Translations under genes and position numbers: made by a program | Virus record (IMG/VR): IMGVR_UViG_3300036820_000044 | Span: 1-38,364 of that record | Strand: one strand, 5' to 3' | DNA length: 38,364 nt | Origin: a virus | Notes under the pieces: generated by a model | Told to the model about the DNA's origin: nothing | Seen by the model: the letters and a program-made list of their open reading frames with translations, nothing else | The model's database searches: none | Part shown: positions 1,119 through 38,364 of the stretch, piece after piece | Layout: every line of letters begins with the position of its first letter | Position numbering within the stretch: position 1 is the first letter of the stretch

Positions 1119-2246
1119 TCACGCCGCGTTTCCTGGATTCTGAGCAAACTCGTGGGGAATCCAGTCGGGATCTTCTCGCCTGATGTTGCGGATGGGCCGG
1201 CCGTGGAACGCCTTGGTCCTTCCGCACTTCCAACAAAACGACGGTTCTGGCAGATCGGGGCCTCTGCCAACGCCGACTTCCCTTTCGACGCCAGGCCTGC
1301 GCCCGTTCCCTGGCGTTGCGCCGCGATCCGCGAATTTCCGAACGGCGAAAACTTCGGCGTGTGAAGCGCGCAGCGATTGCTCCAGCACCGCGCGGATGTC
1401 CTCGCCCTGAGCCTTGAGCTCCTCGAGCTTGCGAACGATCGAGTGCGCCTGGCCTGTCGTCGCGAGGGGCCTTCGAATCGCGGCGCGCATATCCACAAAG
1501 GCCTTCCAAGCGTCTGCCGGGATCCAATCCGGCAGCGTCTCCGCCGGCAGGGATGGGGTTGCCGGTGATCCCATCCCTCCATTTGCGGACGTCCGCGAGG
1601 CGGGGGGATGGGATTGCGGTTGCGATCCCATCCCCCTGGCCGGCGCATGCTGCGGTCCGGGGGATGGGGTTGCAGTTGCAATCCCATGTACGTCCGAGTC
1701 AACAGAAGCCTGCGCGGAGTTACTTCCGGTGCACGGGGGGGGATGGGATTGCAGCCGCGATCCCACCCCGTCCGTCTCCGGCACGAGCTTCACTGTTGGC
1801 GCGAACTCCGAGATCGCCTCTTCCGAAACGCGCACGGAAATCAGCTTCGCGCCGCGAATCGTCACGATGTCGGCGGCGTGCCCCGCGGCTCGCAACCGGA
1901 TTTCCGGTTCCCCGGGAATTTCCACGCGGCCTTGCCCGCGCACGCGAAAATCGAATGCGCCGTCGCGCTGTTTCGCGGAGATCGCGGTGCCCCGCGCGCG
2001 CGGTTTTTTCGGCGCGGCGCTCGCGGGCAGCCATTCGCGCTGCGGCCGAATGCGATAGCGGTTCCACGATTGGGCAGCCTCGGTCGCATGCGCGCGAAGA
2101 TCCTCGGCCTCGATGATTTGCCGCTGCTTCATCTCGCGCAGCAGCGCCTTGAGGTTCGGCACGGACCGCTGCGAAAGCTGCGCCATCTGCTTCTGTCCGC
2201 CCGGCGGCTTGGACCATCGGCCGTTCACGAAGCGCACCAGGGCCAT
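1119..2246 (-). CDS. Putative phage replication protein with repeat-filled linker
   Basis: About 375 residues from ATG 2246, which overlaps the stop of an upstream open frame (TGATG); a GTG at 2252 is the alternative. The N-terminal 150 residues include a helical segment (MAQLSQRSVPNLKALLREM). The region starting LPDWIPADAWKAFVDMR, with IRRPLATTGQAHSIVRKLEEL after it, resembles the C-terminal region of many phage replication proteins (W-x-F-x-x-hR...RKPLT pattern). A late CWKCGRTKAFHG motif may bind zinc. Residues about 159-232 are a Pro/Ser/Gln-rich linker encoded by a run of palindromic repeats plus one copy of the 12-bp palindrome. Upstream of the start the same frame stays open and looks coding but has no start codon, so the true N-terminus may be lost to a frameshift. 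Confidence 0.6.
   Translation of the reverse strand: MALVRFVNGRWSKPPGGQKQMAQLSQRSVPNLKALLREMKQRQIIEAEDLRAHATEAAQSWNRYRIRPQREWLPASAAPKKPRARGTAISAKQRDGAFDFRVRGQGRVEIPGEPEIRLRAAGHAADIVTIRGAKLISVRVSEEAISEFAPTVKLVPETDGVGSRLQSHPPPCTGSNSAQASVDSDVHGIATATPSPGPQHAPARGMGSQPQSHPPASRTSANGGMGSPATPSLPAETLPDWIPADAWKAFVDMRAAIRRPLATTGQAHSIVRKLEELKAQGEDIRAVLEQSLRASHAEVFAVRKFADRGATPGNGRRPGVEREVGVGRGPDLPEPSFCWKCGRTKAFHGRPIRNIRREDPDWIPHEFAQNPGNAA
1550..1769. repeat. Four REP-like palindromic repeats inside the replication gene
   Basis: Units at 1550-1577, 1603-1636, 1659-1687 and 1740-1769. Each is an imperfect palindrome with arms GGGATGGGATTGC and its complement around a short centre. They encode GMGSQPQSHPP-like peptides. 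Related units lie at 6450-6558. The regular arms and repetition suggest a REP or MITE-like family rather than protein-driven conservation. Confidence 0.8.
1585..1596. promoter_or_regulatory. Palindrome GCGGACGTCCGC, copy 1 (candidate ParB or regulator site)
   Basis: Perfect 12-bp palindrome within TTTGCGGACGTCCGCGA, inside the replication gene linker between two REP-like units. The same 12-mer occurs at four other places in the window. Confidence 0.6.
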
Positions 2247-2503
2247 CAGCACGGCGAAGTGATCGAGTGTGATGTACTGCCGGTGATCGGGGGGAAGAGC
2301 GAGACACTGCTGAAGGTGCCACCAGTTGCGGGCGGGATTGCGCGGCGCGGCTGCGGCAGCTCTAGCGATGGCGCCCTCCCTCGCTGATACGCCGGGTGGA
2401 ACGCCATGCCGAAAATCCGATTGCTTTTGCCCCGATTGTTGCTATCCTGCGCCTGCCCATAGGTCGTTTGTTTCACCTCTGTGAGATTGGGGCGAGAAGC
2501 CAA
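2246..2503 (-). CDS. Uncertain open frame upstream of the replication gene (85 aa)
   Basis: Open from ATG 2503 (GTG alternative at codon 10, KQTTYGQAQDS...) to a TGA that overlaps the replication gene ATG. The first half (NNRGKSNRIFGMAFHPAYQRGR) looks protein-like; the second half is Pro/Ser/Thr-rich and looks like an out-of-frame translation. In that second half the replication frame reads NWWHLQQCLALPPDHRQYIT, which looks more like real protein. Either this is a small leader gene coupled to replication, or it is the true N-terminus of the replication protein separated by one indel. Confidence is low. Confidence 0.3.
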   Translation of the reverse strand: MASRPNLTEVKQTTYGQAQDSNNRGKSNRIFGMAFHPAYQRGRAPSLELPQPRRAIPPATGGTFSSVSLFPPITGSTSHSITSPC

Positions 2504-2561
2504 CTGCCCAGGAAACTCTCGCCCCTCTCTTTAAATTCCGGTTCTCAACTCGGACTGCCTA

Positions 2562-2659
2562 CAGCCCATCTCCCGTCAGAGGTTGCCATAAAATAGGAGG
2601 CAGGGCTCGAGACCTGGCGTCCTCCTGTCACCTCGGGGAGATGGGCTGCCAGGCAGCCC
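2562..2659. other. Large nested stem-loop with an alternative 3' hairpin
   Basis: A perfect 13-bp outer stem (CAGCCCATCTCCC at 2562-2574 with GGGAGATGGGCTG at 2636-2648) encloses GAGGT/ACCTC (2579-2583/2630-2634) and AGGAGG/CCTCCT (2595-2600/2621-2626). The 3' arm is also part of a second perfect dyad, GGGCTGCCAGGCAGCCC (2643-2659), so the two structures compete. The element sits between the replication gene and a plus-strand gene; a replication origin, attenuator or structured RNA are all possible. Confidence 0.6.
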
Positions 2660-2777
2660 GAAATCGAGAGCCGGCGAACCCACGCCAACTGCAAGGCTCC
2701 ATCCGCGCATTGCCTCGCTTCGCCGCTTCGCGCCCCGCGATCGCGGCCGAAATCTAGACGAAGCACGAGGCGATTAC

Positions 2778-2806
2778 TTGAGCGGCATCTGACGCCCAAG
2801 TATACG
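2778..2806 (+). promoter_or_regulatory. Sigma-70-like promoter for the 2846 gene
   Basis: TTGAGC (2778-2783), 17-nt spacer, TATACG (2801-2806). A start near 2813 would leave a leader of about 33 nt with GAGGAG at 2831-2836 before the ATG at 2846. Confidence 0.5.
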
Positions 2807-2845
2807 CTCCGGCCCGTCGTCACCAAAGATGAGGAGCTCCGATCT

Positions 2846-3196
2846 ATGGACGAAGTCCCGGTGGAATATTTGCTCGGCACGTCGCGGTCCGCTTTGAAGG
2901 ATCTGCGCCTGCGGAAGCTGACTCTTTCGGCCAATCTCCGGAAGCAGCTGATCGCATCGGCGCAGGAATGGGTGGAGCGGAGCGCCGAGGCGCTATTAAT
3001 CCAGTGGCTCGATGAGCACGGGGAGGAACTGCTCGTGGCGCTAACGGCGGATTCAGCGAGCGTCGAATTCGCGGGAGGGGGGAACGGTGAGGCGACGGAA
3101 CCGAAGCCGCCATTGATGCGGGCTGCCTGCGCGGGCAGGTACGACTTCTGGCGCAGCCAACGGCGGCATGCGCGCAGGCACCGCAAGATCGCGTAG
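2846..3196 (+). CDS. Hypothetical helical phage protein (116 aa)
   Basis: No family recognised. The product (MDEVPVEYLLGTSRSALKDL...) is mostly helical and charged, with a leucine-rich stretch (WVERSAEALLIQWLDEHGEELL) and a basic C-terminus (RRHARRHRK). ATG is preceded by GAGGAG and a good promoter match at 2778-2806. Codon third positions are GC-rich, as in the neighbours, which supports coding. It is the first plus-strand gene, running away from the replication operon, with a strong hairpin just after its stop. A regulatory role is plausible from position only. The upstream frame stays open to 2597 but contains no start codon. Confidence 0.55.
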   Translation: MDEVPVEYLLGTSRSALKDLRLRKLTLSANLRKQLIASAQEWVERSAEALLIQWLDEHGEELLVALTADSASVEFAGGGNGEATEPKPPLMRAACAGRYDFWRSQRRHARRHRKIA

Positions 3197-5641: not shown

Positions 5642-5653
5642 GCGGACGTCCGC
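5642..5653. promoter_or_regulatory. Palindrome GCGGACGTCCGC, copy 2, between recombinase and the next gene
   Basis: The only clearly intergenic copy, in the 193-bp gap downstream of the serine recombinase. Flanks (GATCGCGGACGTCCGCAGGA) differ from the other four copies. Confidence 0.55.
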
Positions 5654-6358: not shown

Positions 6359-6449
6359 TTTCGGCGCGGAATCGGCCGCAAGAGGCGGGTTCCCTACTCT
6401 CTCTCTAAGGGTTTAATCTAGATTCTATGTAATATATAAGGACCACGAG

Positions 6450-6558
6450 GGGGGATGGGATCGCAATTGCAACCCCACCATGGGATCGCAATTGCAATCC
6501 CATCCCCTCGATTTTGCGCGCAATCCCATCCCCCTCGCGCGTGATCCTATCCCTCGGG
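6450..6558. repeat. REP-like palindromic repeats upstream of the recombinase
   Basis: Two full palindromes (6452-6480, 6480-6507) with arms GGGATGGGATCGC around AATTGC, then two half units (6521-6533 and 6541-6558). Same family as in the replication gene at 1550-1769. They fill the gap between recombinase and lysis genes. Confidence 0.75.
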
Positions 6559-35555: not shown

Positions 35556-35743
35556 GCTTTGTCCTTATGCTGGCCGCTGGGACAGTATGCCGACCTGTCC
35601 GCACGAACAGGGTGTTTCGCGGACGTCCGCAAATGGGCCTCGACCTCGGGAAACGTCAGCTGCAGGGGCTTTTTCTTTTTGCGGCGCTTTTCCGAGGATG
35701 GCAGGTTGACGCGCGCGATTTCGATCGCGTGGGAGCGCTTCAT
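35552..35743 (-). CDS. Small basic phage protein (63 aa)
   Basis: ATG 35743 overlaps the stop of the upstream gene (ATGA). MKRSHAIEIARVNLPSSEKR then RKKKKPLQLTFPEVEAHLR; strongly basic, with no recognised domain. The 12-bp palindrome copy at 35619-35630 lies inside it and encodes LRTSAKHP. Function unknown; nucleic-acid binding is possible from charge. Confidence 0.6.
   Translation of the reverse strand: MKRSHAIEIARVNLPSSEKRRKKKKPLQLTFPEVEAHLRTSAKHPVRADRSAYCPSGQHKDKA
35619..35630. promoter_or_regulatory. Palindrome GCGGACGTCCGC, copy 3
   Basis: In reverse orientation it reads ATTTGCGGACGTCCGCGAA, the same flank as three other copies. Inside the small basic protein gene, about 2 kb downstream of the ParB-like gene start. 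Confidence 0.55.
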
Positions 35744-35982: not shown

Positions 35983-36314
35983 TCGCTTCTCTCTTGGCGC
36001 AGATGGCTGCACTGCGCGGTCGCGCAGTCGTGGGGATGGTGGCACTCGGTCATGTGCCCGAAGGGGCAAACGAAGCACGCGATCGGCTGCCTCGCGCCGA
36101 TGGGGCACGCGCCGGCGCGGATCACGTCGATGCCGGCAGGATATTTCGGCGCCGCGAGCAGCACCACGATTGCCGCGTTCAGCGCGTCGAGATTTTCCTG
36201 TGAGGGATTCGAGCGACAGCGTCCCTGCCGCATGATTACAGACTGACGCGCGCGGTCGCGTTCCGCCTCGCATCGCTGCCAAATGGTGGACCTAACGGCT
36301 GCGGCGTTTGCCAT
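35979..36314 (-). CDS. Cys/His-rich small phage protein (111 aa)
   Basis: Helical N-terminus (ANAAAVRSTIWQRCEAERDR) with NPSQENLDALNAAIVVLLAA, then a C-terminal Cys/His cluster (CFVCPFGHMTECHHPHDCAT, AQCSH) that probably binds zinc. Overlaps the ParB-like gene end by 23 nt and its stop overlaps the next start. Function unknown. Confidence 0.65.
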   Translation of the reverse strand: MANAAAVRSTIWQRCEAERDRARQSVIMRQGRCRSNPSQENLDALNAAIVVLLAAPKYPAGIDVIRAGACPIGARQPIACFVCPFGHMTECHHPHDCATAQCSHLRQERSE

Positions 36315-37596
36315 GAGCCGGCCTCCGCGGCTTTGCGGACGTCCGCGAGGCCTTCGCCTCGACGATTATTGCGAGCCAACCACCGCGTTCTCGCGGCATG
36401 AGCTGCGTCAAGCGAAGATTGGTGGGAAGCGCCTTCCTGACGGCCACCTCGATAAGCGGTCGCATCGCGCGCGACGTCGCGGCCAGCGTCGAGCAGAGGC
36501 GTGAATCATTTCGTCGCTTGCCTGCTGCCGGCATCTCTGCGGGATCACGGGGAAACATCCTCGGGGGCCCACTCAGCACGAATTTCTGGCCGCCACATGT
36601 GACGCTCACTCCGTGGTAGAAGCCCTTGGGATCGTTCCTGGCTTTGTCGCCCAGCAAACAGCGTGCGTTGTAGAGGATCGTTCGGCCCGCGAATTCCGAT
36701 CGTGGAACCACGCGATACGCTTCGAGGTCGGAAACACGACCTCTCTCGTGCACCGAAGCCATGCAGCACCACAGCTCGTCGCCGATCGCGAAGAGCGGAT
36801 GAATCTTCCCGCTCATGATCGCAGATCCGCTGTAGCTCGCATCAAGCGAAGCTGCCGTCGGAACGGCGCGCGGATTTGCGGACGTCCGCGAGGCATGGGG
36901 GACCGCCCCGCGATCAGCCGTGTGACTTCCGTCCTTCGCCTCGCGTATATACTCGCGAAGAGCCATGACGCTGAGGTCCGCCCGAGCTGCAACGCGCACG
37001 ACGTCGTCCTGCCGTACGGGATCGAGGCGCGCGACCTCCGCGGCGTGTCCCGCCGAGATCTTCCCGTCCTGCAACGCCAGGCGTGCGTATGGCGTCAGCT
37101 TCAGCAGCTCCAGCCGGTCGTAGACGTAGCGCGGAGACTTGCCGATCCGCGCCGCGATATCGGCTACGCCGATCTTGGCTGTCCCATCGCTATTCGTCGC
37201 CTTCAGCAGCGCCTGGTAGCTCGCCGCTTCCTCGAGCGGCGCAATGTCGCGCCGCTGCAAATTTTCCACGATCTGCGCCTCGAGCGCGGCCGTGTCCGTC
37301 ATCATGCGCACCAGGCACGGCACGTGCGCCAGATTCGCCAGCTTAGCGGCGCGCCATCGCCGCTCGCCGATGACGATCTCGTAGCTGCTCTCGGTCAACG
37401 GCCGCACCGTTAGTGGCTGCAGCACCCCGCTCCTCGCGATCGATTCGGAGAGTTCCCGAAGTTCGTCCTGCGAGATTCGCTTGCGCGGGTTGGACGCCGA
37501 CGGTGTCAGAGCATTGATCGGAACGAGATAGAACTTTTGCTCCAGCTTCGGCATCGGTTCGGGCGCCTGCGCCGTTGCTTGTGCTCCGGTGCTCAT
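36292..37596 (-). CDS. ParB-like protein with long C-terminal extension (434 aa)
   Basis: ParB/Spo0J-type proteins bind a palindromic centromere-like site and, using CTP, spread on DNA; many phage relatives act as regulators instead. Residues about 22-120 form the ParB N-domain with GERRWRAA (77-84) and ENLQRRD (111-117), the CTP-binding motifs; residues 142-170 are a helix-turn-helix (IADIAARIGKSPRYVYDRL region). Residues 230-434 are unlike classical ParB (WCCMASVHERGRVSDLEAYR, ILYNARCLLGDK). No ParA is encoded in the window. Two copies of the 12-bp palindrome lie within the coding sequence (ASRTSANPRA and ASRTSAKPRR). Confidence 0.75.
   Translation of the reverse strand: MSTGAQATAQAPEPMPKLEQKFYLVPINALTPSASNPRKRISQDELRELSESIARSGVLQPLTVRPLTESSYEIVIGERRWRAAKLANLAHVPCLVRMMTDTAALEAQIVENLQRRDIAPLEEAASYQALLKATNSDGTAKIGVADIAARIGKSPRYVYDRLELLKLTPYARLALQDGKISAGHAAEVARLDPVRQDDVVRVAARADLSVMALREYIREAKDGSHTADRGAVPHASRTSANPRAVPTAASLDASYSGSAIMSGKIHPLFAIGDELWCCMASVHERGRVSDLEAYRVVPRSEFAGRTILYNARCLLGDKARNDPKGFYHGVSVTCGGQKFVLSGPPRMFPRDPAEMPAAGKRRNDSRLCSTLAATSRAMRPLIEVAVRKALPTNLRLTQLMPRERGGWLAIIVEAKASRTSAKPRRPAHGKRRSR
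36335..36346. promoter_or_regulatory. Palindrome GCGGACGTCCGC, copy 4
   Basis: CTTTGCGGACGTCCGCGAGGC near the 3' end of the ParB-like gene. Confidence 0.55.
36878..36889. promoter_or_regulatory. Palindrome GCGGACGTCCGC, copy 5
   Basis: ATTTGCGGACGTCCGCGAGGC in the middle of the ParB-like gene, between the helix-turn-helix and the C-terminal extension. Confidence 0.55.
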
Positions 37597-38230: not shown

Positions 38231-38364
38231 TCATTTCGTTGAGCGTGCGATCCAGAGTGGGTCGCGGTAGCGTGGATATTTCTGCGCCATCGCCATGATG
38301 GCCGGGCGCAGCACGGGATAGTTTTCGTGGTCACCCTTGAGCGCCACCATGGCGAGATCGCGAA
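38231..38364 (-). CDS. 3' end of the repeat protein gene that starts at base 367
   Basis: Forty-four codons open from the right edge (RDLAMVALKGDHENYPVLRP then AIMAMAQKYPRYRDPLWIAR) to TGA 38231-38233. Joined to base 1 it continues the frame entering from 367 without change. Upstream neighbours on the circle are the replication-region small proteins. Function unknown. Confidence 0.7.
   Translation of the reverse strand, partial: RDLAMVALKGDHENYPVLRPAIMAMAQKYPRYRDPLWIARSTK

Follow-up and report, generated by a model that had tools for sequence, protein, structure and literature searches.

A long quasi-palindromic hairpin beside the O-like replication gene of a phage

Genomic setting

What is the role of a strongly palindromic stretch of DNA that lies between the replication gene of a phage and its divergent neighbour? 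The question is raised by a 38,364-base virus record of IMG/VR, the whole of which is referred to below as the window. An earlier note on this DNA described a nested stem-loop between the replication gene and a plus-strand gene, and regarded its competing pairings as typical of attenuators or replication-control RNAs.

The genes of the window include those for lambda-type portal, major head and tail proteins, ParB and a serine resolvase. The terminase has 60 IMG/VR relatives at 63-89% identity; among named phages and plasmids the terminase finds matches below 60% identity only, and so does the portal among named phages. No match to the window's rep was found among the terminase relatives, and no further relatives of the Rep N-terminus or of ParB were found. 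Judging by its ends, the record probably derives from a circle and retains an assembly overlap. It carries a 127-nt direct repeat (1-127 equals 145-271), its last 16 bases (38349-38364) are those directly before the second copy of this repeat, and the gene order around the record ends matches that of relatives.

The location of the structure is borne out: to the left is an O-like replication gene, and the plus-strand gene to the right, of which seven phages have homologues, is real (Table 1). The rep open frame extends to 2441, with no ATG, GTG or TTG upstream before 2252. The minus-strand frame 2252-2441 looks like a continuous N-terminus despite lacking these codons, and the start may be the ATC at 2369-2367, which follows GGGAGGG and fits the extended N-terminus. 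Ahead of the 116-aa gene, the TTGAGC-17-TATACG sequence is promoter-like by eye and fell under the threshold of the promoter/terminator scan. As it sits between the hairpin and the 116-aa gene, the hairpin would on this reading be outside the leader of that gene. The terminator-like stem on the rep side of the hairpin was not called by the terminator scan. Nearby, 2469-2488 (TGTTTCACCTCTGTGAGATT) has three mismatches to the chromosomal parS palindrome TGTTTCACNTNTGTGAAACA, where 0.02 such sites are expected by chance.

A divergent HTH-like gene lies upstream of most of the seven homologues of the 116-aa gene, and an HTH (repressor-like) gene diverging from a 116-aa-type gene, on its upstream side, is the recurrent layout in the loci L085-L091 of related phages. 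An RHH-type protein gene is convergent to the 116-aa gene in the window, as it is to the 116-aa-type gene in L087.

Structure of the hairpin

The full unit is a quasi-palindrome of 138 nt with CCGG at both ends and about 40 bp of pairing. It is non-coding and intergenic. Outermost in its fold are helices of 9, 4, 6 and 13 bp, and the inner helices lie within them. The stem-loop of the earlier note is real and makes up the core of this unit; its span of 2562-2659 was too short. The 13-bp perfect stem, with further helices inside, and the second perfect dyad that shares its 3' arm are both present exactly as described. In each arm of the element GGGAGAT adjoins a small palindrome, the two arms being inverted around a 61-nt spacer; this inner dyad is GGGCTGCCtGGCAGCCC in one arm and a degenerate copy in the other.

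Table 1. Coordinates of the hairpin, its parts and the flanking features in the window.
Feature	Position	Strand	Basis or remark
rep, phage lambda O-like replication gene, phrog_678	1119..2369	-	profile match, E 7e-10 (replication initiation)
Dyad GGGGCGAGA / TCTCGCCCC, then CTCTTTAAATT on the plus strand; weak terminator-like stem for rightward transcription	2484..2530	.	
Whole quasi-palindrome, long imperfect hairpin	2538..2675	.	folding, half-to-half alignment
13-bp perfect stem, 5' arm CAGCCCATCTCCC	2562..2574	.	
Apical stem AGGAGGCAGG / CCTG..TCCTCCT, 8-nt loop GCTCGAGA	2593..2628	.	folding
13-bp perfect stem, 3' arm GGGAGATGGGCTG	2636..2648	.	
Small perfect dyad GGGCTGCC-A-GGCAGCCC, rival of the long stem	2643..2659 (2643-2650/2652-2659)	.	
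Operator-like dyad ACTTGAGCG-N8-CGCCCAAGT	2770..2807	+	overlaps promoter-like TTGAGC-17-TATACG before the 116-aa gene
116-aa gene, no assigned function	2846..3196	+	seven related phages have homologues, 29-41% identity

The fold is strong on both strands. Its minimum free energy (MFE) is -80.4 kcal/mol on the plus strand and -84.3 kcal/mol on the minus strand (2538-2675). The folding-energy check that had been proposed gave z = -6.3 for 2540-2680 on each strand, with none of 200 dinucleotide shuffles as low on either. In a GC-corrected MFE scan of the whole window no fold of the minus strand ranked above the 138-nt hairpin, and only one of the plus strand did. Aligned half against half, it scored 49, against 9 +/- 6 for shuffled letters (maximum 35.5, n = 2000). 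With DNA parameters, z was -5.5. Four of the differences between the arms are wobble-compatible on the minus strand versus two on the plus strand, which is too few to show a strand preference. A 13-bp perfect stem as good arose in 13 of 60 whole-window shuffles and in 2 of 1000 shuffles of the intergenic region alone. Since chance would thus yield a 13-bp arm in roughly one of five windows with the same composition, the weight rests on the whole unit, which is stronger and longer than first noted.

Other palindromes of the window

The perfect palindrome GCGGACGTCCGC occurs five times (1585-1596, 5642-5653, 35619-35630, 36335-36346 and 36878-36889), two copies lying within parB (36292-37596, minus strand) and one within rep. 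With at most one mismatch it is seen 7 times, against 0.6 expected by chance. These copies are candidate parS-type sites for the phage ParB; the exact sequence was not found in the related loci compared.

Palindromic repeats of about 33 nt, GGGGATGGGATTGC..GCGATCCCATCCCC, occupy 1550-1769 in the rep linker and 6449-6553 beside the resolvase gene, and form the strongest plus-strand fold in the window. The GGGATGGGATYGC repeats lie within rep and, again, at 6449-6553. The GGGGATGGGATTGC..GCGATCCCATCCCC repeats are possible origin iterons or resolvase sites. They are absent from the related loci compared, and their 32-nt pattern had no match in 398 genomes of one phylum. The GCGGACGTCCGC and GGGATGGGATYGC repeats are better candidates than the hairpin for partition and replication/resolvase sites, which also lowers the chance that the hairpin is the origin.

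Search for relatives of the hairpin

No Rfam family was found at the gathering threshold or at a permissive E-value, the best hits being sub-threshold microRNA models attributable to chance. The hairpin DNA had no blastn match in phages and plasmids, the exact arm pattern had none in IMG/VR, and 398 genomes from a single phylum gave none by blastn of the whole element. When the intergenic region was compared by blastn with 49 related records, only scraps of 14-37 nt matched. A covariance model, built from both strands, had the window itself as sole match against 1.27 Mb of relatives and gave no further match in the 49 whole related records. No comparable hairpin was seen in the upstream regions of the seven 116-aa-gene homologues, and no second copy within the phage record.

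Several candidates were discarded. A gapped stem pattern gave two matches in IMG/VR that were unlike the hairpin in sequence and loop and were judged to be chance. Half-arm patterns, run on IMG/VR and GTDB contigs, gave partnerless single arms at about the chance level by estimate. A stem-seed scan of relatives found other hairpins, none of them homologous.

Relatives hold palindromes of their own: a hairpin of L042 lies just past the end of an integrase-like gene, and at 6764-6914 of L050, about 3 kb upstream of the terminase, there is a near-perfect inverted repeat with arms of about 50 bp and a folding energy of -129 kcal/mol.

As no relative carries the element, covariation is not computable. 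The earlier note had tied its interpretation to conservation in relatives. None of the related phage records searched has the hairpin, and by the note's own measure that interpretation is weakened. Since the replication modules of the relatives differ, with no match to rep, this absence is no strong refutation of function. In general kind the hairpin is a known one: a single structure that is well supported but not conserved.

Alternative explanations

The proposed exclusivity of the two pairings holds, for the dyad at 2643-2659 needs the outer helices broken in order to form. A balanced switch between them is not supported. Forcing the dyad against the long stem costs 16.7 kcal/mol on the plus strand and 19.1 on the minus strand; at equilibrium the dyad pairs with a probability of about 1e-11 and 1e-14, respectively. 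Only on the minus strand, and for a short while at a prefix of 60 nt, does growing-prefix folding give it as the best structure. With one fold dominating by 17-19 kcal/mol and a dyad probability of about 1e-11 or less, the attenuator-type competition suggested earlier finds no support. An attenuator or antisense-type replication-control RNA acting as a true two-state switch would suit the two perfect, incompatible pairings and the adjoining rep gene, but this energy gap, the lack of conservation and the absence of a U-tract terminator after either state make it very improbable. No intrinsic terminator near the hairpin was called in either direction by the terminator scan. As to sequestration of a Shine–Dalgarno (SD) sequence, the candidate SD of rep is about 160 nt away from the hairpin. 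RNA-based control of replication by the hairpin is, more broadly, a possible role.

Clearly more weight, almost as much as for the leader reading below, is due to the view that the hairpin is a mobile or repetitive palindrome of REP doublet/REPIN, BIME or MITE type that came from an unsequenced host and sits passively in the intergenic region, although its probability too falls well short of even. A REPIN consists of two REPs in inverted orientation, separated by a spacer able to form a hairpin, and has two alternative folds (PMC3116915). These two folds would then correspond to the long stem (long hairpin) and the small dyad (clover). The inverted arms, each of GGGAGAT and a small palindrome, around the 61-nt spacer do form one hairpin from two inverted palindromic units, and the element is lineage-restricted and sharply bounded by CCGG. 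Against this, the phage record contains a single copy where many would mark such a repeat, and plasmids, phages, IMG/VR and GTDB contigs yielded no copy with the patterns used. There is no target duplication, the flanks TTTAAATT/CCGG and CCGG/CGAACCC sharing no direct repeat, and of the ten proteins scanned none was recognised as a RAYT. GGGAG, which resembles a REP head, points inward; REPs of Pseudomonas have the opposite arrangement. Less probable again is a site acting at the DNA level, in which two inverted copies of one protein-binding palindrome (operator, recombinase, or replication/partition) could extrude as a cruciform. The inner dyad in each arm, the folding as DNA and the ParB and resolvase encoded by the phage are in keeping with such a site. 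However, the palindromes that recur in this genome are different ones and better candidates for Rep, ParB or resolvase sites, and the pairing of the hairpin runs far past its inner dyads.

A possible structured leader of rep

The reading tentatively favoured, at rather less than an even chance, is that the hairpin acts in cis as a structured leader of the leftward transcript of rep, of the type that serves as a substrate for RNase III. A transcript starting to the right of 2676 and running leftward would carry the hairpin of about 40 bp, the end of which would fall about 170 nt before the probable rep start. RNase III would cut the long helix, or the helix would stabilise and pace the leader, and the leader hairpin would in this way set the amount of Rep made. 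Transcription of the hairpin, the relevance of the minus strand, processing and an effect on rep are our inferences from the sequence.

The first rank of the fold on the minus strand, its slightly better energy there and the larger number of wobble-compatible arm differences on that strand (four against two, few as they are) point to such a leader. So does its location, flanked by rep and by a divergent gene, the promoter-like site of the latter being situated beyond the hairpin. The helix is long enough for RNase III, which is specific for double strands. On the other side, the promoter scan found no promoter for a leftward leader, the fold is nearly as good with DNA parameters, and likewise on the plus strand, and no relative has the hairpin from which covariation could be drawn.

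It is quite improbable that the hairpin is a phage-specific structured RNA controlling an O-like Rep, in a phage with ParB and parS-like sites (possibly plasmid-like) and with no sequence relative in the collections searched. If transcribed and functional, the hairpin would add a new element to the cis-control of phage replication; if it is mobile, the phage would be carrying a palindromic repeat of its host at the replication locus.

Comparison with known systems

With REPINs the hairpin shares two inverted short palindromic units and a spacer, one long hairpin, alternative self-closed units and an intergenic position. It differs from them in its single copy, the lack of a recognised RAYT, the inward GGGAG and the lack of a host family among the collections searched.

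The replication module of lambda type has an O protein and an origin inside its gene. The O-like Rep of the window likewise has repeats inside its gene, as lambda O does, whereas the hairpin lies outside the rep gene. To our knowledge, the hairpin has no counterpart in lambda. The lambda N leader is an example of a leader hairpin processed by RNase III in the early transcripts of a phage. No sequence similarity to such leaders is claimed for the present hairpin; the likeness is that of a long helix placed before an early gene.
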